This document shows positions 1-7,325 of a stretch of 7,325 bases of DNA, piece after piece (within the stretch, counting starts at the first letter, position 1; each line of letters opens with the position of its first letter). This DNA comes from Verrucomicrobia bacterium TMED40. GTDB taxonomy: Bacteria > Verrucomicrobiota > Verrucomicrobiia > Opitutales > Seribacteraceae. The DNA lies in NCBI GenBank assembly GCA_002167605.1, contig NHCT01000048.1, forward strand, positions 1 to 7,325. Reading direction: 5' to 3'. Below the pieces are notes generated by a model. The model worked only from the letters and a program-made list of their open reading frames with translations. It had not been told where the DNA came from and did not search any database. Both the position numbers and the translations under genes were made by a program.

Positions 1-719
1 TAATCAGTCCCGCCTGTGGGCAGGCAACCTTCGGCTATGTCATCGAGGCAATCGACGCCTGCCTTGCCCAAAGCGTCCATGCGGTGGTCACCTGCCCGGC
101 CAACAAGGAGGCTTTGCAATCCGCAGGCGTTCCCCACCCCGGACACACGGAGATTTTTGCCGAGCGGACCCAAACTGAAAAATTCTGCATGGCCTTTCTA
201 TCCGACAAGATCAATTGCAGCTTGGTCACGGTGCATGCGGGGTATGAGCAGGTTCCGGGCTTATTGAATGAACGAAGAATTGCAGAGGTCATTGAGCTTA
301 CGCGTGAGACCCATAAAAAATTGCTGGGGAAGGAGCCGAGGATCGCGGTGTGTGGGCTTAATCCCCACGCTGGGGAAAACGGGATGTTCGGAAACCGGGA
401 AGAGGAAGGTATCATCCAACCCGCAATTGACGCAATGCGCGCAGAGGGTTGCGATATCGTGGGTCCTCTCCCACCCGATACCGCCTTCACCGAGACCCAA
501 AGACGGCAAACCGATGCTTACGTCTGCATGTATCACGACCAGGGCCTGATTCCAGTTAAGGCGATTGCCTTCGAATCGGCGGTGAATGTCACCCTGGGCT
601 TACCCATTGTTCGCACCTCCGTGGATCATGGCACCGCGTTTGACATTGCCTGGCAGGGCAAGGCGGATTCCCGCAGCCTAAAGTCAGCGGTCCGGCTTGC
701 CTCCCGCTTGGCGATCTAG
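1..719 (+). CDS. pdxA: PdxA-family 4-phospho-hydroxyacid dehydrogenase, C-terminal part (5' end outside window)
   Basis: The frame is open from base 3 to the TAG at 717-719 and gives 238 residues. The family is about 330 long, so roughly the first 90 residues lie upstream of the window. PdxA oxidises 4-phosphooxy-L-threonine with NAD(P) in cytoplasmic pyridoxal phosphate synthesis. Visible motifs, in order, are TCPANKEAL, PGHTEIFAE (substrate-binding His-Thr), VTVHAG, GLNPHAGENG, MYHDQGL and RTSVDHGTAFDIA. The histidines of VTVHAG, NPHAGE and MYHDQG correspond to the three divalent-metal ligands of E. coli PdxA, and all are present, so the enzyme should be active. A Trp replaces the usual Gly in the DIAG segment (DIAWQGKAD), a minor deviation. 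Paralogues of the family (PdxA2/DtnP) act on 4-phospho-D-threonate or D-erythronate in sugar-acid catabolism. The fragment alone cannot exclude that role, and the nearby dehydrogenase remnant keeps it open. The family call is firm; the exact substrate is less so. Confidence 0.93.
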   Translation, partial: ISPACGQATFGYVIEAIDACLAQSVHAVVTCPANKEALQSAGVPHPGHTEIFAERTQTEKFCMAFLSDKINCSLVTVHAGYEQVPGLLNERRIAEVIELTRETHKKLLGKEPRIAVCGLNPHAGENGMFGNREEEGIIQPAIDAMRAEGCDIVGPLPPDTAFTETQRRQTDAYVCMYHDQGLIPVKAIAFESAVNVTLGLPIVRTSVDHGTAFDIAWQGKADSRSLKSAVRLASRLAI

Positions 720-747
720 GAAAACTCTATAAGACCCCCATCCTTTC

Positions 748-2118
748 ATGGCAAAAGTCATCTTTCTTTTCACACTTCAAACCTTGGCAATGATTCAAGG
801 GTTTTCGCAACCACCCCTATTGCGAGACTTCATGGGCATCAACGGACATTTTCATTTCGACCCAAACCAATACGCACAAACCTGCAGACTTGCCCGCAAT
901 TACCATAACCTAAATTGGGACGTAAAAAAGCCCGGTGATCCCATCACCTTTCCCCTGTGCGTAAATAAAGTGAATTGGAAGACTCACGTATACGGCAAAT
1001 GGATAAGCGGGGGCTTCGAGAACAGTCTCTGCGCCATGTTCGGATCCTTTGGGGAGAGCAACAAGGATTATATATCACTGTGGAAAGGTCAGGAGGATTG
1101 GTGCTTTGAATACGGCAAGTCCATGGCGAGCTACTTCGGTCCCTCAGGGAATGAAAAACTAATCACTTCCATTGAGATCGATAATGAACCGGGCAATGAT
1201 TTCGACGACCCCCTGTATCAATCCATTTTTCGGAGCATGGCCAGAGGGATTCGGGCGGGAGATCCGAAAATCAAAATTGTTACTTGCACCGCCCACGCCC
1301 ACCAAGCCGACAAATATTCCAAGGACCTACGAGAGACTTTTTCCGACCCCCAAATCCTCGAGCTTTTCGATGTGATCAACGTGCACACTTACGCCCAACT
1401 GGAAAAAGGCTTAACTAAAAGTCCTTGGACAAGAACCTACCCCGAGGGGGAAGACACGACCTATCTTGAGGTGATTGAGGAGACGATTCAATGGAGGGAT
1501 CATCATGCTCCCGGCAAGGAGATTTGGATAACTGAATTCGGTTATGACTCCTGCACCCCAAGGGTTATGGCCAATCGAACGGGGTGGTTTGAAAAACTGG
1601 ACTGGCGTGGAGTTACGGACCTTCAGCAGGCTCAGTATTTGATTCGCTCCTTTTTGCTGTTTTCCTCCATGAAGGTGGATCGTGCCTATCTCTACTTTTT
1701 CGACGATAAGGATGAGCCACAAGTTCACGGATCGTCCGGTATCACCAGAAACGGAAAACCAAAGCCCAGTTTTCATGCAGTTAGTCAACTCTACCAAACC
1801 CTTGGTGACTACCGGTTCTCACGGATCGTCCAAAAAAATAGCCAGCTCTACCTGTTCGAATTCTTGAAGGGAAAGGACAGGGATCAGGTTTGTTGGGTAG
1901 CTTGGTCACCCACTGGTTTTCGATCGGATCAAAAAGTCAAAAAAAACCACCGGGCAACTGAGATCACACTCGCTGATCTGCCCTCAAAACCAGATCGCCT
2001 GCTCGCTATGCAAACCTCCGGGGAAAGTGAGCCAAAAGACTTCGTTTCAACTTCGGGCTCCATCACATTCGAACTCAGCGAAAGCCCGGTGTATCTGTTC
2101 TTTGAACCGAAGCAGTGA
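748..2118 (+). CDS. Secreted clan GH-A-like glycoside hydrolase, substrate unknown
   Basis: This gene encodes 456 residues. Residues 1-20 look like a signal peptide: Lys3, then a hydrophobic stretch, then a likely cut near GFS-Q, so the enzyme probably acts in the periplasm or outside the cell. The body looks like a (beta/alpha)8 barrel of clan GH-A (GH5/GH39/GH10-like). IEIDNEPG holds the likely acid/base Glu147 after Asn146, INVHTY (His213) marks a middle strand, and IWITEFGYDS holds the likely nucleophile Glu263. Residues from about 355 to the end (YLFEFLKG, WVAWSPTG, ITFELSESPVYLFFE) resemble the small beta-sandwich that often follows such barrels. The early segment MGINGHFHFDP...RNYHNLNWDV resembles uncharacterised PVC-group glycosidases, from memory. 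The ATG at 748 gives a proper signal peptide, but no good Shine-Dalgarno precedes it; GGAAAA overlapping the pdxA stop is too distant. It lies 28 bp after pdxA and may be cotranscribed. I cannot name a GH family or substrate. Confidence 0.82.
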   Translation: MAKVIFLFTLQTLAMIQGFSQPPLLRDFMGINGHFHFDPNQYAQTCRLARNYHNLNWDVKKPGDPITFPLCVNKVNWKTHVYGKWISGGFENSLCAMFGSFGESNKDYISLWKGQEDWCFEYGKSMASYFGPSGNEKLITSIEIDNEPGNDFDDPLYQSIFRSMARGIRAGDPKIKIVTCTAHAHQADKYSKDLRETFSDPQILELFDVINVHTYAQLEKGLTKSPWTRTYPEGEDTTYLEVIEETIQWRDHHAPGKEIWITEFGYDSCTPRVMANRTGWFEKLDWRGVTDLQQAQYLIRSFLLFSSMKVDRAYLYFFDDKDEPQVHGSSGITRNGKPKPSFHAVSQLYQTLGDYRFSRIVQKNSQLYLFEFLKGKDRDQVCWVAWSPTGFRSDQKVKKNHRATEITLADLPSKPDRLLAMQTSGESEPKDFVSTSGSITFELSESPVYLFFEPKQ

Positions 2119-2129
2119 CTTCCCAGCCT

Positions 2130-2301
2130 CTCCGCCAAATCACTGGGAAACGAGGCAAGTGTTCCCTCTTAGCCCTGAAGTTCTTCAAAGGCTCCCGTCC
2201 ATCCGATTGAAAAAGTAAGTCGGGCACCAGCCTCGATCAAATGCGAGCCATGGGCTTAGTCATACTGCCGAGACCGATGAATCCAAACTGAGCTTATCCA
2301 T
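2130..2301 (-). pseudogene. Decayed N-terminal remnant of a beta-hydroxyacid dehydrogenase (HIBADH / GarR / LtnD family)
   Basis: Reading leftward from ATG at 2301-2299, three frames join into one recognisable N-terminus. ATG GAT AAG CT gives MDKL. After one missing base, the frame from 2290 reads QFGFIGLGSMTKPMAR, the GxGxxxxPMA dinucleotide-binding motif of this family. A stop (TGA, 2239-2237) follows. One missing base at about 2241 would restore MARNLIEAG, and that frame reads LIEAGARLTF and then GAFEELQG. TAA at 2171-2169 interrupts it, and EGTLASFPSDLAE follows to about 2130. This matches about the first 57 of roughly 290 residues; nothing of the rest is visible before the glycosidase gene ends at 2118. 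A good Shine-Dalgarno (GAGAGGT, 2313-2307) still stands 5 bases before the ATG, so this was once a real gene start. The family reduces or oxidises 3-hydroxy acids such as 3-hydroxyisobutyrate, tartronate semialdehyde or threonate. I see nothing in 2302-2391 apart from that ribosome-binding site. Confidence 0.8.
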
Positions 2302-2302
2302 G

Positions 2303-2320
2303 CTGTACCTCTCAAGTCAT
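2303..2320 (-). promoter_or_regulatory. Relic Shine-Dalgarno site of the dehydrogenase remnant
   Basis: Read on the minus strand, GAGAGGT (2313-2307) lies five bases before the ATG at 2301-2299. It is the best Shine-Dalgarno match I found in the window. It supports 2301 as the ancestral start and suggests the decay is fairly recent. Confidence 0.5.
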
Positions 2321-2391
2321 CAAAATGGTTCTCTACTTTTTCTTGTGGGTTCAGTTTCAGGATAACACTTCCAAACCTCAACGCAAAGCCT

Positions 2392-3615
2392 TCACAGTTG
2401 GCCTAATGCAAAGGATAAAACACCAAGGAGAACTACAATAAATGGAGCGGGTAATTTCCTAAGGCTCAGGCAGGCAACCGTGAGCAATAAGTACCCGAGG
2501 GACGACGGAACCTCGGCGAGAACCAGGACCACTTGAACCAAAGCTCCTCCCACCAATCCGCCAGCCGTCGCATTCAGTCCGTTCAATGCTTTTCCCGCCC
2601 AAGTGAGATTCCGGAGCCGACCCCAAATTGGATAAACGAAAAAAAGCAAAAGTGTGCCCGGTAAAAAGATCGCAAGCCCCGATATCGCTGCGCCAAGAGC
2701 TTGCCGTCCGCTCCCACCAGTCACCTCGGACAATCCCCCGGCGTAGGCGGCGAAGGAAAACATGGGACCTGGCAATGCCTGAACCAAGCCGAATCCCCCA
2801 AGAAACTGATCGGTGGTCAGGAACTCCCCATGATCCACCAATTCTTGTTGCATCACGGGCACCACAACTTGACCTCCTCCGAACACCAAATAACCAAAGC
2901 GGTAAAAACGTTCGAAGGCACCAACCAAGGAATCGGTCGAAAACTGAAGGGCAATCGTACTCATTCCAGCGAATGCAACAAACAGCATGAAAAGACCCCA
3001 TGGAATTCGGGTCGGTGAAAATTCGGAGTCTCCCCCTTTTTCCGGAGCCTTTCCCAAAATCGCCGCCAACAGCCCTCCTGACGCAAGGATTAGGGGAATG
3101 GCCCAGGGAGAGTTGGCCAGAAGTACGACTGCGAAACCCTGCCCCCACAGTGCCAATGTCAATAAATCGGAAATTACCTTCTTCCCAATTTGCCAAGTCG
3201 CCCAGGCGATGAAACCACCCGCCATAGGGACCAAAAAGGATAACCAATCAGGCCAACGACCATCCGAACCCAGCCCATAGGGTAAAAAGGACAGAGCTCC
3301 CATCACGATGATCATGGGCATCGCCCAAACCAGTAAAGTAAGGCTTGCCAGACGTCGGCCCCCTTTTTCCAAGCCAATTCCGGTGATCACCTGCGTGCTA
3401 GTGGGGCCAGGGAGAAAACTGCAAAGAGCCATCCACTCCATCAGCGATTTTTCAGTGAGGTATTTCTTCTTCTTGACGAGTCGCTCCAAGAAAACGCCCA
3501 AATGAGCCTCAGGGCCGCCAAAAGCAACCAGAGAGCACATAAAAACATCCTTTAGAAATGTTGAGGTAGAGAACGGAATTCCTTCCGTTTCCTCAAGGTC
3601 TTTTGAATCGCTCAC
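2392..3615 (-). CDS. chrA: ChrA-family chromate/anion transporter (two CHR domains)
   Basis: This 407-residue inner-membrane protein has the long, two-domain architecture of the CHR family, which exports chromate by proton-motive force in characterised members. Domain 1 shows FGGPEAHLGVFLERLV (residues 32-47) and PGPTSTQ (69-75). Domain 2 repeats the pattern with FGGGQVVVP (245-253) and PGPMFSFAAYAGG (282-294). A charged cytoplasmic linker of about 15 residues (near 190-204) separates them. Hydrophobic segments run through both halves. The start is GTG at 3615-3613, whose GTGA overlaps the TGA stop of the upstream channel gene, so translation is probably coupled; there is no obvious Shine-Dalgarno. 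It is the last gene of the arsR-arsC-channel operon. That placement suggests ArsR control and leaves open a substrate other than chromate, such as another oxyanion. No chromate-specific regulator (chrB) or reductase is visible here. Family assignment is secure; substrate is inferred. Confidence 0.93.
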   Translation of the reverse strand: MSDSKDLEETEGIPFSTSTFLKDVFMCSLVAFGGPEAHLGVFLERLVKKKKYLTEKSLMEWMALCSFLPGPTSTQVITGIGLEKGGRRLASLTLLVWAMPMIIVMGALSFLPYGLGSDGRWPDWLSFLVPMAGGFIAWATWQIGKKVISDLLTLALWGQGFAVVLLANSPWAIPLILASGGLLAAILGKAPEKGGDSEFSPTRIPWGLFMLFVAFAGMSTIALQFSTDSLVGAFERFYRFGYLVFGGGQVVVPVMQQELVDHGEFLTTDQFLGGFGLVQALPGPMFSFAAYAGGLSEVTGGSGRQALGAAISGLAIFLPGTLLLFFVYPIWGRLRNLTWAGKALNGLNATAGGLVGGALVQVVLVLAEVPSSLGYLLLTVACLSLRKLPAPFIVVLLGVLSFALGQL

Positions 3616-4250
3616 TTCTGCGATTCGAAAAATGTCTTATAAACAAAAAGGGCAAGAAAAGCACCTATGATTTGGGCCACACAAAAGTGTAAAATATCAT
3701 TGGTGGAAATTCCGGCAAAGGTATTGGAAAAGGATCTGCCAATCGTTCCCGCAGGGTTGGCAAAGGAAGTCGAGGAGGTAAACCAATAAGCTGCCCCAAT
3801 GTAGGCTGCCACCGTTAGAGCTACCTTTTCCTTGGATGACAATAAAATGACCATCAGCAAGCCAAAGGTGGCAAGTATTTCACTGACAAACAAATGGGTA
3901 CCACTCCTTGGCTTTTCCGAAAAGTAAACGGGATCCAATTCAAAAATATAATTGGCAAGCATCACCCCAAGGATAGCTCCGGAAATTTGGAGAATAATAA
4001 AAATGGTGCACACCTGTGTTGTTATTTCTTTCCTTACCAGCATGACCATGGAGACCACCGGATTGAAGTGTGAGCTGTGTTCTCCAAAAATGGTAATCAG
4101 GAAATAAAGGGCAAATACGGTGGCCAGGGTATTAGCGAGCAGAGTCAGGGAATCATTGGAACTCAGGTTTTGTCCCATGATTCCCGAACCCACCACCGTA
4201 CAAAACAGAAAGGCCGTGCCTAAGAGTTCAGAAAAATACTTGGATTTCAT
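3612..4250 (-). CDS. Aquaporin/MIP-family channel of the arsenic operon (AqpS-like arsenite channel)
   Basis: This 212-residue membrane protein has the MIP layout of about six hydrophobic segments and two half-helices. The N-terminal helix starts SELLGTAFLFCTVVGSG. The first pore motif is NPV rather than NPA (Asn63-Pro64-Val65, in HFNPVVSMVML). The second is a regular NPA (165-167, in SFANPAGTIGRSFSNTFAGI). Gly168 sits where water-selective aquaporins carry the selectivity-filter Arg, implying a wider pore. The SFANPA..IGRS..NTFAGI segment resembles arsenic-linked channels such as Sinorhizobium meliloti AqpS, which lets arsenite flow out down its gradient after ArsC reduces arsenate. The gene starts 9 bases after the arsC stop and overlaps the chrA start. 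No strong Shine-Dalgarno precedes the ATG at 4250-4248. The MIP family call is firm; transport of arsenite is inferred from the operon and the pore motif. Confidence 0.9.
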   Translation of the reverse strand: MKSKYFSELLGTAFLFCTVVGSGIMGQNLSSNDSLTLLANTLATVFALYFLITIFGEHSSHFNPVVSMVMLVRKEITTQVCTIFIILQISGAILGVMLANYIFELDPVYFSEKPRSGTHLFVSEILATFGLLMVILLSSKEKVALTVAAYIGAAYWFTSSTSFANPAGTIGRSFSNTFAGISTNDILHFCVAQIIGAFLALFVYKTFFESQK

Positions 4251-4259
4251 TTCAGTAAA

Positions 4260-4709
4260 TTATTTCTCCCCCAAAGATTCGGGTAACGTAAGGATATACT
4301 CTTTGATTTCATCACGCACTTTTCGATAACAATCCAATTGAGCCTCTTCGGATCCACCTTGTTCAGCCAATTCCTTTGCCATCTTTGGAGGATCCGGAAA
4401 TCCACTGTGTACCACCTTACAATTTGCGGGAAAGACAGGACAGGTTTCATGAGCATGCCCACAAACGGTAACCACCACATCAAGCTGTGTATCCGCAAAG
4501 TCGCGAATATTTTCTGATTTTTGCTTAATCACATCAACCCCCGCCTCAGCCATGACCTTGACCATATGCGGGTTAAGCCCATGCGTTTCTATTCCTGCGG
4601 AGAAGGCTTCAATAGAATCCCCCTTAAGCTGGCGTGTCCAACCTTCCGCCATCTGACTTCGGCAGGAATTGCCGGTGCATAAATAAAGAAGTTTTAGTTT
4701 TTCAGTCAT
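4260..4709 (-). CDS. arsC: Arsenate reductase, thioredoxin-type (low-molecular-weight phosphatase fold)
   Basis: This cytoplasmic enzyme of 149 residues reduces arsenate to arsenite. The N-terminal P-loop is CTGNSCRSQ, with nucleophile Cys11 and Arg17 spaced as CX5R. The relay cysteines Cys83 and Cys90 lie in VCGHAHETC, seven residues apart, as Cys82/Cys89 do in the Staphylococcus pI258 enzyme. FPDPP supplies the general acid Asp106. This Cys triad marks the thioredoxin-coupled class rather than the glutaredoxin-coupled E. coli R773 class, and rules out a plain tyrosine phosphatase. Length is slightly above the usual 130-140 residues because of a C-terminal helix ending LPESLGEK. ATG at 4709-4707 is 15 bases after the arsR stop; the AT-rich gap has no clear Shine-Dalgarno. 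The product arsenite would leave through the channel encoded immediately downstream. Confidence 0.96.
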   Translation of the reverse strand: MTEKLKLLYLCTGNSCRSQMAEGWTRQLKGDSIEAFSAGIETHGLNPHMVKVMAEAGVDVIKQKSENIRDFADTQLDVVVTVCGHAHETCPVFPANCKVVHSGFPDPPKMAKELAEQGGSEEAQLDCYRKVRDEIKEYILTLPESLGEK

Positions 4710-4724
4710 TTTATTTATTTAGGT

Positions 4725-5099
4725 TTAGCAACACGAAAGAGTTGCCTGTTTTTCTCTCTGACGATTCCTCAGTTCAATCGGGGTACATGAAGTTACTTTT
4801 TCCAATCGCTTCAGATCCTCCAGTAGTTCTGAATCTTCTGAAATTTTTCTTTCTATCCATTTCATGAGAGTGTTGAGATCCTCATCTTGCTGATCGAGCG
4901 AGTAGTGGACCCATCTCCCATCCTTCCGGTTTTTGACAATTTTGGCTTTACTGAGTGCGTTCAAATGATTCGAGGCCGTGGCACCACTAACGCCAAGCCA
5001 TTCATTGATTTGACATACACACAACTCTTTTCTTTTCAGTAAGGAAGCCACAATCCGAAAGCGGTTACGGTCGCCCAGTGCTCTAAATAAATTATTCAA
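4725..5099 (-). CDS. arsR: ArsR/SmtB-family arsenic-responsive repressor
   Basis: This is a 124-residue winged-helix DNA-binding repressor. FRALGDRNRFRIVASLL opens the fold, and the recognition helix region reads LGVSGATASNHLNAL (residues 35-49). The wing follows with KNRKDGRWVHYSL. ELCVCQ carries Cys27 and Cys29, matching the first two As(III)-binding cysteines of the R773 ArsR ELCVCDLC motif. The third cysteine of that motif is absent. Further cysteines lie at 105 and in a terminal Cys123-Cys124 pair. The tail after residue 80 (helical and charged) is longer than in minimal ArsR proteins. The start is TTG at 5099-5097, because an in-frame TGA lies seven codons upstream with no ATG or GTG between; a weak AGAG precedes it. 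It is the first gene of the ars operon, and the perfect inverted repeat just upstream is its likely operator, giving autorepression relieved by arsenite. Confidence 0.94.
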   Translation of the reverse strand: MNNLFRALGDRNRFRIVASLLKRKELCVCQINEWLGVSGATASNHLNALSKAKIVKNRKDGRWVHYSLDQQDEDLNTLMKWIERKISEDSELLEDLKRLEKVTSCTPIELRNRQREKQATLSCC

Positions 5100-5106
5100 G
5101 TAAATC

Positions 5107-5135
5107 TCTATATTTAGTCATCCGACTAAATGCAA
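5107..5135 (-). promoter_or_regulatory. Candidate promoter of the ars operon
   Basis: On the minus strand TTGCAT (5135-5130) is followed after 17 bases by TATAGA (5112-5107), each 4/6 to the sigma70 hexamers. Transcription would then begin almost at the TTG start codon, giving a near-leaderless message. An alternative is TTGTCA (5157-5152) with a poor -10 at 5134-5129 and a leader of about 20 bases. In either case the inverted repeat overlaps the promoter. Confidence 0.3.
5112..5131. promoter_or_regulatory. Perfect inverted repeat, probable ArsR operator
   Basis: ATTTAGTC and GACTAAAT flank the four bases ATCC, a perfect 8-bp dyad 12 bases upstream of the arsR start codon. Dimeric ArsR proteins bind such AT-rich dyads over their own promoter. 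It lies exactly between the candidate -35 and -10 of the minus-strand promoter. It is also about 20 bases upstream of the candidate plus-strand -35, so bound repressor could affect both directions. Binding is inferred from position and symmetry. Confidence 0.6.
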
Positions 5136-5139
5136 TCAT

Positions 5140-5157
5140 CTACCATGTTTATGACAA
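5140..5157 (-). promoter_or_regulatory. Weak PhoB-box-like sequence
   Basis: The minus strand reads TTGTCATAAACATGGTAG. Against the enterobacterial Pho box (CTGTCAT, an A/T-rich spacer, CTGTCAY) the first half matches 6/7 and the spacer fits, but the second half keeps only TG and A. It points toward the ars operon and overlaps the candidate -35 elements of both directions. Chance occurrence is quite possible. Confidence 0.18.
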
Positions 5158-5180
5158 CCAACGCCCGATTTACCTAAAAT
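5151..5180 (+). promoter_or_regulatory. Candidate sigma70-like promoter of the glycosyltransferase-plcP operon
   Basis: ATGACA (5151-5156, 5/6 to TTGACA) and TAAAAT (5175-5180, 5/6 to TATAAT) are separated by 18 bases. Transcription would start near 5187, leaving a leader of about 44 bases before the ATG at 5231. It is the best hexamer pair I found on this strand in the 131-bp interval. Confidence 0.4.
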
Positions 5181-5230
5181 CATTACATTCTACGGGGGAA
5201 ATTGGCGCAAAACTAAGATAAATTTGAAAA

Positions 5231-6439
5231 ATGGGACTAAAATGTGGCGGCATTGAGGTTTGTTTGTTAACTGAAACTTTCCCTCCTGAGGTAAACGGTG
5301 TATCTTTCACTCTCGCCAGATTGGCCAGGGGGTTATCCTCACTTGGTGCAAATGTTAAGGTTTTCCGCCCCAAACGCTCTTATATTGGATCAGGTGAAGA
5401 ACCATGGGAGGAAATTGATATTCCCGGATGCCCCATTCCAAACTATCCGCAGCTCCGGTTCGGACTACCCTGTGCTAAAAAATTAGAAAACTTATGGAGA
5501 AGCAAGCGTCCAGATATTATTTACCTCGCCACCGAAGGTCCGGCAGGATTTTCAGCATTACGAGTAGCTGGAAAACTTCAAATTCCGGTCGTATCAGGCT
5601 TTCATACAAATTTTGATCTTTACCTAAAACACTACCGAATTTCCTTCATTCAACCCTTAATCGACTTTTACTTAAAGTGGTTTCACAACCGTACTTCAGC
5701 GACATTTGCCCCCACTGATTGGATGATCGAAGAGCTGGAAAATAAAGGCTACCGCAATCTGCACATGCTTAGCCGTGGAGTGGACAGGACCTTATTCTCC
5801 CCCAGACGAAGGTCAGAAAAACTCAGGGAAAAATGGGGAGCAAGCAAAACAGAAAAGGTAATAGTCACAGTCTCACGTATTGCGGCTGAAAAAAACCTGG
5901 ACCTTACTTGTTCGCTAACTGATGAAATGATAAGTCAGGGAAAAGCCAAAGCAGGGGTAATTGTTGGGAGCGGTCCTGAACTTAAAAAGCTTAAGCAAAA
6001 ATTCCCGAGATTACACTTCACCGGCTGTCTCTCGAAACAAGCTCTTGCAGAACATTATGCCTCTGGCGATATATTCCTTTTTTCCAGTGTGACCGAAACT
6101 TTTGGTAATGTGGTAACGGAAGCTCTCGCCTCAGGCACTCCTGTTGTCGCGTATGATTACGCCGCTCCGTCTGAGTTTATTGAAGAAAATGTAAATGGCT
6201 TCCTGGCCCCGCTTGGTGATGAAGGTGTTCTCAAAATAAAACTTAACGAAATCCTCAGTCTTAATTTAAGCATCTTATCGAAATTTAAGAAAGCGGCTCA
6301 AAAATCCACCCAAAAAGCGGACTGGGATTTCATTCTACAAAGGTTCCATACAGACCTTTTACAGATTATCAAAAAGGATAAAAACCATAATCTAAGTGAA
6401 TTTTCTCCTTCAAGAAAATCTCAACCTAATCCGGCCTGA
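5231..6439 (+). CDS. GT4-family glycosyltransferase, probably acting on diacylglycerol (Agt-like)
   Basis: This is a retaining GT-B glycosyltransferase of 402 residues. The N-terminal acceptor domain opens with IEVCLLTETFPPEVNGVSFTL, with the glycine-rich loop near Val21-Asn22-Gly23, and carries SGFHTNF (His125). The C-terminal donor domain has TVSRIAAEKNL (Arg216 and Lys221, phosphate contacts), GVIVGSGPE, and the EX7E motif of family GT4 (Glu289 and Glu297 in ETFGNVVTE). It then has ALASGTPVVAYDYAAPSE. No membrane segment is evident, so membrane association would be peripheral. The sequence style is that of alpha-mannosyl- or glucosyltransferases acting on lipid acceptors. The next gene is PlcP-like and overlaps it by one base (TGATG). 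The likely acceptor is therefore the diacylglycerol PlcP releases, as with Agt in phosphate-limited alphaproteobacteria. ATG at 5231 leaves only a few residues before the first beta strand, so it fits, although the Shine-Dalgarno is weak. Sugar donor and linkage cannot be read from the sequence. Confidence 0.88.
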   Translation: MGLKCGGIEVCLLTETFPPEVNGVSFTLARLARGLSSLGANVKVFRPKRSYIGSGEEPWEEIDIPGCPIPNYPQLRFGLPCAKKLENLWRSKRPDIIYLATEGPAGFSALRVAGKLQIPVVSGFHTNFDLYLKHYRISFIQPLIDFYLKWFHNRTSATFAPTDWMIEELENKGYRNLHMLSRGVDRTLFSPRRRSEKLREKWGASKTEKVIVTVSRIAAEKNLDLTCSLTDEMISQGKAKAGVIVGSGPELKKLKQKFPRLHFTGCLSKQALAEHYASGDIFLFSSVTETFGNVVTEALASGTPVVAYDYAAPSEFIEENVNGFLAPLGDEGVLKIKLNEILSLNLSILSKFKKAAQKSTQKADWDFILQRFHTDLLQIIKKDKNHNLSEFSPSRKSQPNPA

Positions 6440-7311
6440 TGAAATCCAAAAAGATAAAACTGAAATACCGAACAGTATTTTTATCTGACACGCATTTGGG
6501 GATGCGAGAAACAGGCATTGAAAAACTTAATCATTTTCTCTCTCATATCTCATGCAAAACCTTGGTTCTTAACGGCGACTTCATTGATGGATGGGCCTTG
6601 GAAGGTAGCGGGGAATGGAAAAAAGCACACACCCGATGTGTACGACTAATTCTTAAAATGGTTGAGAAGGAAAAGACCAAGGTCATCTATCTGCGGGGTA
6701 ACCACGATGATTTTTTATCTCGAATTCTCCCCATTACTTTCGACCGAATCAAAATCTGTGAAAAGTATATTCACAAGGGAAAAGATAAAAAATATCTTGT
6801 TCTTCACGGTGACTGCTTTGACAGTTTCTCCACAAAGCGTAGGTGGATCGCCCGCATTGGTTCAATTGGCTACGACAACCTCATGCGGTTTAATCGTTTC
6901 TACAACAAATACCGTAAACTCAGAGGTAAAAAGCCATTCTCCCTGAGTGCCTGGGCTAAGGCCAAAGTGAAAAGTGCAGTTAATCATGTTCACCGGTATG
7001 AGGATAGCCTCGCCGATATGGCACGGAAACATAACTGTGATGGAATGATTTGCGGACATATCCACGTGGCGGCGGACCGTATGATCAACGGCATTCATTA
7101 TCTAAACAGTGGAGACTGGGTGGAGTCGAATTCAGCAATAGTTGAAGAAAAAGACGGAAGCTTAGAGATTTTAGATTACGAGCAATTCTCTAAGAAGATG
7201 AAAAGGCATAAAGAGTCGGTATATTATCCCCGAGCCAACTTCTCATCAGCAAGCAAAGTAGTTTCAAAAAGACGCAAGACGATTACTCAGAAAATAGACT
7301 CCTTAAATTAA
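6439..7311 (+). CDS. plcP: PlcP-like metallophosphoesterase (phospholipase C of lipid remodelling; COG2908)
   Basis: This calcineurin-like phosphoesterase has 290 residues. The metal-binding blocks appear in order: SDTHLG (Asp17, His19), NGDFIDGW (Asp47), RGNHDD (Asn88, His89), VLHGDCFD (His123) and CGHIHVAA (His207, His209). LNSGDWVES (223-231) follows. The blocks also fit LpxH, the lipid A diphosphatase. However, the length (LpxH is about 240), the insert FNRFYNKYRKLRGKKPFSLS (151-170), and the WAKAKVKSAV and SGDWVES segments are closer to what I recall of PlcP of Sinorhizobium meliloti. PlcP cleaves phosphatidylcholine and similar lipids to diacylglycerol under phosphate limitation. The start codon overlaps the glycosyltransferase stop (TGATG), so translation is coupled. 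The C-terminal 40 residues are basic (KKMKRHK, SKRRK) and could help bind anionic membranes. No signal peptide is seen, so it should act on the cytoplasmic face. The family is certain; the PlcP role over LpxH is likely, supported by the neighbour. Confidence 0.85.
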   Translation: MKSKKIKLKYRTVFLSDTHLGMRETGIEKLNHFLSHISCKTLVLNGDFIDGWALEGSGEWKKAHTRCVRLILKMVEKEKTKVIYLRGNHDDFLSRILPITFDRIKICEKYIHKGKDKKYLVLHGDCFDSFSTKRRWIARIGSIGYDNLMRFNRFYNKYRKLRGKKPFSLSAWAKAKVKSAVNHVHRYEDSLADMARKHNCDGMICGHIHVAADRMINGIHYLNSGDWVESNSAIVEEKDGSLEILDYEQFSKKMKRHKESVYYPRANFSSASKVVSKRRKTITQKIDSLN

Positions 7312-7325
7312 ACTGATTTTTTACG

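Follow-up and report, generated by a model that had tools for sequence, protein, structure and literature searches.

The first 7,325 bases of a 9791-base contig of Verrucomicrobia bacterium TMED40 (GenBank accession number NHCT01000048.1; G000:C49), referred to below as the window, raise the question of why an arsenic resistance (ars) operon should stand head to head with genes for a glycosyltransferase (GT) and a PlcP-like phosphoesterase, a predicted lipid-remodelling pair. The window proteins were assigned from a list of open reading frames and from scans with Pfam and NCBIfam models, which bear out the arrangement described in a first-pass annotation made from the sequence alone: arsR, arsC, a channel gene, and chrA on the reverse strand and the GT4/PlcP-like pair on the forward strand diverge from one 131-bp interval (positions 5100 to 5230; Table 1). 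The genome that contains the window, G000, is a 2.49-Mb draft, 84% complete. The reading favored here, with moderate confidence, is that of an arsenic-phosphate island, in which a run of Pst/PhoBR genes, starting with GT-PlcP, lies opposite the ars operon. When phosphate is scarce, the two operons would complement each other, one serving to take up phosphate and cut the need for it and the other to remove the arsenate that enters along with it. This reading draws on gene content, gene order, conservation, and two types of predicted sites; co-regulation and arsenate tolerance are proposed on these grounds.

Phosphate genes next to the ars operon

The 9.8-kb contig continues just past the end of the window, where GT-plcP leads into pstS, phoB, and phoR in the same direction, so that the pair forms the front of a phosphate starvation (Pst/Pho) gene run; GT-plcP through phoR presumably form one transcript. 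G001 and G013 have the same gene order, and their longer contigs add pstC, pstA, pstB, phoU, and an Na/Pi cotransporter gene. The earlier assignment of GT-plcP to phosphate limitation agrees with the place of the pair in the Pst/Pho gene run of these three genomes. PstS gives a single match in G000, as well as in each of the 13 pstS-bearing genomes of the family.

Conservation was surveyed in 92 genomes, 42 of them family members. An arsC of the window's type, defined as a match of at least 67% identity (weaker arsC-like matches, at most 46% identical, were set aside), is present in 18 family genomes. The surroundings of all 18 were annotated by similarity to the proteins of the window and its neighbors, with the absence of arsR judged within the fetched stretch only. 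In 12 of the 18, belonging to three genera (g1, g2, and g4), the ars genes directly face phosphate-type genes. The exact junction of the window, with arsR facing GT-plcP-pstS-phoB, is found in G000, G001, and G013. In G009, G035, and G037, arsR faces porin-pstS-GT-plcP-phoB-phoR, and in G029 it faces porin-pstS-phoB; the porin of G035 belongs to the phosphate-selective O/P family. An arsC without arsR faces porin-pstS-phoB in G017 and phoB2-phoR2-porin-cotransporter in G024, G019, G015, and G008 (there with a porin fragment in between). The names phoB2 and phoR2 are labels coined here, and the phosphate role of these genes is deduced from the adjoining porin, cotransporter, and phoU genes. The adjacency of ars and GT-plcP is thus seen across species and genera and is not confined to one strain. 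GT-plcP was not found in 6 of the 12 directly facing genomes, however, so the constant partner of ars is the phosphate module and the lipid pair is optional; the specific tie to lipid genes suggested by the first-pass annotation is not supported in that form.

In G018, G030, and G039, the contigs stop at the junction; another contig of G030 and of G039 begins inside pstS and continues with GT-plcP-phoB-phoR. The contig of G020, a member of the same genus as G000, ends within the first of the intervening genes of the type found in G022 (see below). Across the family, this arsC type is present in 12 of the 13 pstS-bearing genomes vs 6 of the 29 pstS-less ones (Fisher P = 1.8e-5, a value that ignores kinship and missing sequence). 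In G008, a 33-residue porin fragment runs directly into phoB2 on one contig (L057, 8733 to 9099), while a second contig (L058, 1 to 8615) carries porin-pstS-phoB-phoR-pstCAB-phoU as far as the beginning of phoB2. This looks like either an assembly effect or a mixture of cells, some with the Pst block and some without it.

Beyond the family, named genomes were scanned with ArsC; of at least 592 relatives, the 80 best were kept, with at most 10 kb on each side and many of the stretches short; this collection may omit records close to G000 and hence says little about the family itself. Among these 80, no GT-plcP pair lies beside arsC, except in L071 (uncultured Verrucomicrobia isolate AG-919-G08), the contig of which is letter-identical to that of G020. 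AG numbers are assumed here to denote ocean single-cell genomes. Weak lone matches near arsC include PlcP (25% identity; L083) and GT (24%; L087), and response regulator matches near other arsC genes are weak and may be generic. Matches to pstA, pstB, and phoU lie about 7 to 9 kb from arsC in a member of Phycisphaerales (L135, 10001 to 20417), and a weak pstS match (30%) lies about 2 kb from arsC in a member of Desulfobulbaceae (L126, 7765 to 10417). A wider survey of 387 genomes from the phylum finds PlcP in 114 (E ≤ 1e-40), arsC in 188 (E ≤ 1e-20), and both in 83; among the matches listed, inspected by eye, the two are close together only in G000, followed by G043 at about 20 kb. As far as seen, the ars-phosphate-lipid linkage is a feature of one family.

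Such a distribution would also be expected if an ancestor had placed ars beside Pst and its descendants had inherited the neighborhood without any regulatory or physiological coupling. All cases found belong to one family, the gene content varies on both sides (GT-plcP, chrA, arsR, and even pst), and the two regulators have separate predicted sites. Yet the junction outlasts rearrangement, as ars faces GT, a porin gene, or phoB2 and the facing gene is still of phosphate type in 12 of the 18 genomes; in addition, arsC co-occurs with pstS, and the same association is reported around arsenite oxidase in other phyla, according to excerpts of PMC3834237 (excerpts are also the source for the other papers cited below, unless the main text is named). 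Descent alone is considered an unlikely, though by no means negligible, explanation, and a functional arsenic-phosphate island is preferred.

Two types of predicted regulatory sites

The inverted repeat ATTTAG-N8-CTAAAT lies 12 bp from the start of arsR and 99 bp from that of GT. The pattern ATTTAG-N8/9-CTAAA is found 0 to 25 bp from the arsR start in all 11 loci that hold arsR together with its upstream side (G000, G001, G013, G022, G020, G009, G037, G035, G030, G029, and G012); G039, where the contig ends inside arsR, and G018, where it ends before arsR, were left out of this count. The dyad is absent from all 5 arsR-less loci, and only one further match, in G009, occurs across 25 scanned loci (316,797 bases). 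Because the dyad tracks arsR, present in 11 of 11 loci with this gene and in 0 of 5 without it, it is probably ArsR's own operator. It is kept in G012, though the ars operon of that genome faces no phosphate genes. The operator-like dyad noted earlier between the two start sites does exist, but it is unevenly placed and looks private to ArsR rather than common to both operons.

Regulation of pstS1/phoB1 by ArsR1 in Agrobacterium tumefaciens 5A (PMC7965956) provides a precedent for a scheme in which ArsR would also repress the phosphate-lipid operon, so that arsenite would turn on phosphate uptake and lipid remodelling, and the start sites in the window are just 131 bp apart. Such a scheme fits poorly with the position of the dyad close to arsR and far from GT, with the loci that have lost both arsR and dyad while retaining phosphate-type genes, and with the larger gap, 198 to 206 bp, in the porin-first loci of G009, G035, and G037. 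Dyad position and loss pattern both oppose ArsR as a common regulator, and this alternative is judged improbable.

The second type of site comes from the phosphate side. The upstream regions of phoB, pstC, and the porin gene have in common half-sites similar to GTTACA and GGCGCA, spaced by 11 bp. A half-site matrix was built from ten sites chosen for this spacing. In 267,617 bases, pairs scoring at least 14 number 51 at 11 bp, 23 at 22 bp, and 1 to 8 at each of the other spacings from 7 to 25 bp. Loci giving no training site, some of which are close kin and thus only partially independent, yield 30 pairs at 11 bp, 14 at 22 bp, and 0 to 5 at other spacings; a reversed-sequence control yields 4 sites vs 48. 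This 11-bp-phased repeat appears to mark phosphate promoters in the family and represents a candidate Pho box. Strong sites, with scores of 17.5 to 17.6, are found in the arsR-porin intervals of G009, G035, G037, and G029, and phoB of the window's contig has a site at 8313 with a score of 14.3. At the arsR-GT junction, the window and six other genomes share TTACA-N16-GG(C/T)GCA, in which the half-sites are two turns apart; the copy in the window is the third best 22-spaced pair of 19528 contig positions. From this pattern, GT-plcP of the window's clade seems to have acquired a pre-existing phosphate promoter in weakened form.

Other patterns are less informative. For the textbook Escherichia coli Pho box (CTGTCAT repeats), the best sites, with 10 of 14 matches, lie elsewhere, and none at the arsR-GT junction reaches 10. 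Allowing one mismatch, GTTACA-N5-GTTACA has 3 matches in the whole of G000, one of them at phoB of the window's contig, vs 9 in a backward-read control, so that the exact pattern is uninformative. A simple promoter scan of positions 5040 to 5290 gives one sigma-70-like site (5151 to 5180, forward strand) vs 0.7 expected by chance, which is too weak to use. The ars operons of L054, L057, L059, L060, and L062 face phosphate-type genes and have neither arsR, nor the dyad, nor a strong Pho box.

Gene products on the two sides

The metal-site motifs of PlcP (SD.H, GD..D, GNHD, HGD, and GHIH) are invariant in an alignment of 20 sequences. The aligned LpxH has GNRD, and the GNHD variant is taken here to set PlcP apart from LpxH. 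The window protein scores far below the cutoffs of the LpxH models (TIGR01854, 30.1 bits vs 190.35; PRK05340, 41.2 vs 134). It is 39% identical over 261 amino acids (aa) to a Sinorhizobium homolog, whose neighbors (by eye, malic enzyme and a LuxR-type regulator) presumably mark the studied PlcP locus. PlcP strips the phosphate group off phospholipids, leaving diacylglycerol for the synthesis of glycolipids (PMC9804370), and plcP of Sinorhizobium meliloti is regulated by PhoB (PMC10315480).

For the GT, 3 of the 4 best NCBIfam models describe lipid glycosyltransferases, all of them far below cutoff, and the solved structures matched by the GT alone are all further enzymes of the GT4 type, many of which serve as fusion tags on receptors; PlcP alone matches none. 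Elsewhere in the phylum, GT and PlcP are found as a single polypeptide of 653 to 685 aa in 4 of 6 loci from other families (L154, 1117 to 3147; L155, 1542 to 3557; L157, 2439 to 4400; L159, 514 to 2571), which had been picked for long frames; in the remaining 2 of the 6, PlcP carries a different long N-terminal part. These fusions support a shared pathway for both predicted enzymes. Further open frames of 640 to 800 aa occur around PlcP matches in the phylum. G001 has a second, more distant GT-plcP pair (L036, 8026 to 12787; 53% and 68% identity), which adjoins genes for an ABC ATPase, an MlaD-type protein, and an ABC auxiliary lipoprotein, a set resembling lipid transport genes.

These proteins might instead act on lipid A or on some other glycoconjugate of the envelope and stand at this locus for reasons unrelated to phosphate saving. 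Among solved structures, LpxH is a distant relative of PlcP, and the fused forms elsewhere in the phylum need not be regulated by phosphate. On the other hand, LpxI is encoded in 33 of the 42 family genomes, including G000, so that PlcP is not needed as LpxH; together with the model scores, this argues against PlcP being an LpxH. Further, PlcP is found in 30 of the 92 relatives, too patchy a distribution for lipid A, the nearest named models of the GT are mostly lipid glycosyltransferases, and the second pair of G001 lies beside MlaD-type lipid transport genes. An envelope role of this kind is very improbable, slightly more so than joint repression by ArsR, and phosphate-saving lipid remodelling remains the preferred role of GT-PlcP.

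On the arsenic side, the best NCBIfam model for ArsC, TIGR02691, stays below its cutoff (147.7 bits vs 174.3). The P-loop CX5R, along with Cys10, Cys82, and Cys89, is invariant in an alignment of 11 sequences; Cys82 and Cys89 are presumed to be resolving cysteines with roles as in pI258 ArsC. The Cys-x-Cys motif is retained in all 11 family ArsRs inspected. The MIP channel gene directly follows arsC, as in AqpS-type ars operons. An Acr3 model finds no match in the 84% complete G000 and none above cutoff in the 42 family genomes (ArsB was not searched for). Because no above-cutoff Acr3 was found in the family, the MIP channel is the likely exit route for arsenite, by analogy with AqpS. AqpS of S. 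meliloti has been cited as an arsenite exit in describing the aquaporin beside ArsC of SAR11 (PMC6426599). A chrA gene also follows the MIP gene in G008, G009, G013, G017, G018, G020, G022, G030, G037, and G039 and does not follow it in G001, G012, G015, G019, G024, and G029. In L052 (7186 to 7569) and L053 (940 to 1323), arsR is about 54% identical to that of the window and the neighboring arsC is 91% identical; arsR appears to have been swapped inside an otherwise stable operon.

Table 1. Features of the window (positions 1 to 7325) and of the adjoining part of contig NHCT01000048.1
Feature	Position	Strand	Evidence or remark
chrA-like oxyanion (chromate-family) transporter, last gene of the ars operon	2392-3615	-	PF02417, E = 5e-55; TIGR00937 above cutoff
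MIP/aquaporin-family channel	3612-4250	-	PF00230, E = 8e-16; two Asn-Pro motifs (NPV, NPA) in translation
arsC, thioredoxin-type arsenate reductase	4260-4709	-	LMWPc, PF01451
arsR, ArsR/SmtB repressor with Cys-x-Cys (ELCVC)	4725-5099	-	PF01022; NF033788 above cutoff
Inverted repeat ATTTAG-N8-CTAAAT, predicted ArsR operator	5112-5131		Pattern search
Phased half-sites ATTACA...GGCGCA, 22 bp apart, candidate weak Pho box before GT	5182-5209	+	
GT4 glycosyltransferase, predicted lipid glycosyltransferase	5231-6439	+	PF13439/PF00534; EX7E motif at residues 289-297
PlcP-like metallophosphoesterase (calcineurin-like), predicted phospholipase C type	6439-7311	+	PF00149; frame shares one base with that of GT
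pstS	7444-8256	+	Beyond window, same contig
phoB	8296-9084	+	Beyond window; true start probably downstream of 8329
phoR	9112 to contig end (gene cut)	+	Beyond window; scanned in its G001 copy

Positions 748 to 2118 of the window, between pdxA and chrA, give a subthreshold match to a cellulase/GH5 model (23.0 vs 23.5 bits).

Arsenate and the phosphate starvation response

In the proposed working of the island, low phosphate would activate PhoR and PhoB and thereby raise the expression of Pst and GT-PlcP. Phospholipids would then lose their phosphate to PlcP, and the remaining diacylglycerol would receive a sugar from the GT. ArsC would reduce the arsenate that comes in via phosphate transport. 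The product, arsenite, would detach ArsR from the dyad and exit by way of the MIP channel. Each regulator, ArsR and PhoB, would act on a site of its own, so that two neighboring operons would respond to two signals that arise together, not to one operator.

Besides the optional nature of the lipid pair, several observations weigh against this reading. In 4 of the 12 directly facing genomes (G008, G015, G019, and G024), the facing gene is phoB2, the phosphate role of which is deduced from its neighbors. In G022, 11 kb with DUF3450, ExbB, TonB, and receptor genes precede GT-plcP-pstS on the same contig; in G012, the ars operon lies on a 5.3-kb contig without phosphate genes; and in G006, which has pstS, no arsC was found. 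The arsR-GT interval of the window has no strong 11-spaced pair, the best one scoring 7.9 and lying on the opposite strand at the GT start codon. Likewise, no strong box is found in the arsR-less intervals, which lends no support to control of arsC by PhoB in those loci. Finally, subthreshold Acr3-like matches in 14 of the 42 family genomes indicate that another arsenite pump is possible there. The intervening genes of G022 (L052, 7985 to 10914; L037, 282 to 8560) code for DUF3450, ExbB, TonB, TPR, and TonB receptor proteins and have strong Pho-box-like sites at 7904 and 7915 (L052) and 6581 (L037); they possibly represent a phosphate-regulated outer membrane uptake system.

Parts of this arrangement have been described in other organisms. 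Arsenic islands with pst, pho, and phn genes were proposed to aid in the use of scarce phosphate under arsenic (Li et al. 2013, PMC3834237). The present locus is similar in the clustering of ars with pst and pho genes. Those islands, as excerpted, center on the arsenite oxidase genes aioBA, whereas no aio-like product was found among the genes scanned on the window's contig (the rest of G000 was not searched) and the sole detected PstS copy sits in the island. The locus thus appears to work as an arsenic-phosphate island of a kind other than the aio type. The main text of that paper contains none of the strings "lipid," "glycosyl," and "Verrucomicrob." In A. tumefaciens 5A, ArsR likewise stands beside phosphate genes; there, a separate pho/pst2 locus runs the formal phosphate response, unlike the single PstS match and the dyad at arsR seen here (PMC7965956). 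In Halomonas sp. HAL1, PhoBR controls aioBA, and the Pho box consists of two 7-bp direct repeats with a 4-bp spacer (PMC4563254); the target there is arsenite oxidase, whereas the boxes predicted here have other half-site sequences (GTTACA/GGCGCA). SAR11 bacteria have a similar arsenic gene set, an LMWP-type ArsC with an adjacent AqpS-like aquaporin, which is more common where phosphate is low (Giovannoni et al. 2019, PMC6426599); the excerpts describe just these two arsenic-related genes and no joined phosphate or lipid operon. Pairs of plcP and a neighboring glycosyltransferase gene (plcP-agt), with predicted Pho boxes, are known from lipid remodelling (PMC4796936), the difference being that here GT precedes plcP and the pair runs into pstS-phoB-phoR. 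The main text of that paper has no word starting with "ars." Three further papers contain words of both kinds: in the text of PMC10315480 and PMC9804370, the match to "arsen" is "arsenal," and that of PMC5111396 has a single mention of an unexpressed arsenate reductase. Known singly, then, are ars-pst/pho islands, control of pst/pho by ArsR, control of arsenite oxidase by PhoB, ArsC-aquaporin pairs, and plcP-glycosyltransferase pairs. No description of ars joined with plcP and a glycosyltransferase was found among open-licence papers, judged by titles and the first lines of abstracts and, for the papers named here, by their text, in agreement with the earlier statement that no description of such a unit is known.

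A broader generalization is offered only tentatively: arsenate detoxification might be a standing branch of the phosphate starvation response at the family's main Pst/PhoBR locus, with ArsR dropped in some lineages and lipid replacement brought in at the junction; low phosphate would then at once raise uptake, lower demand, and disarm arsenate. Arsenate does the most harm where phosphate is in shortest supply. The joined clusters in the excerpted literature center on arsenite oxidase, whereas the link described here lies in Verrucomicrobiota, at the only detected PstS copy of G000, and includes membrane lipid replacement. If the proposed reading is true, lipid remodelling may count as a form of arsenate tolerance, since a cell that needs less phosphate would be less compelled to let arsenate in, and a phosphate-starved cell would be prepared for the arsenate that it mistakenly takes up.

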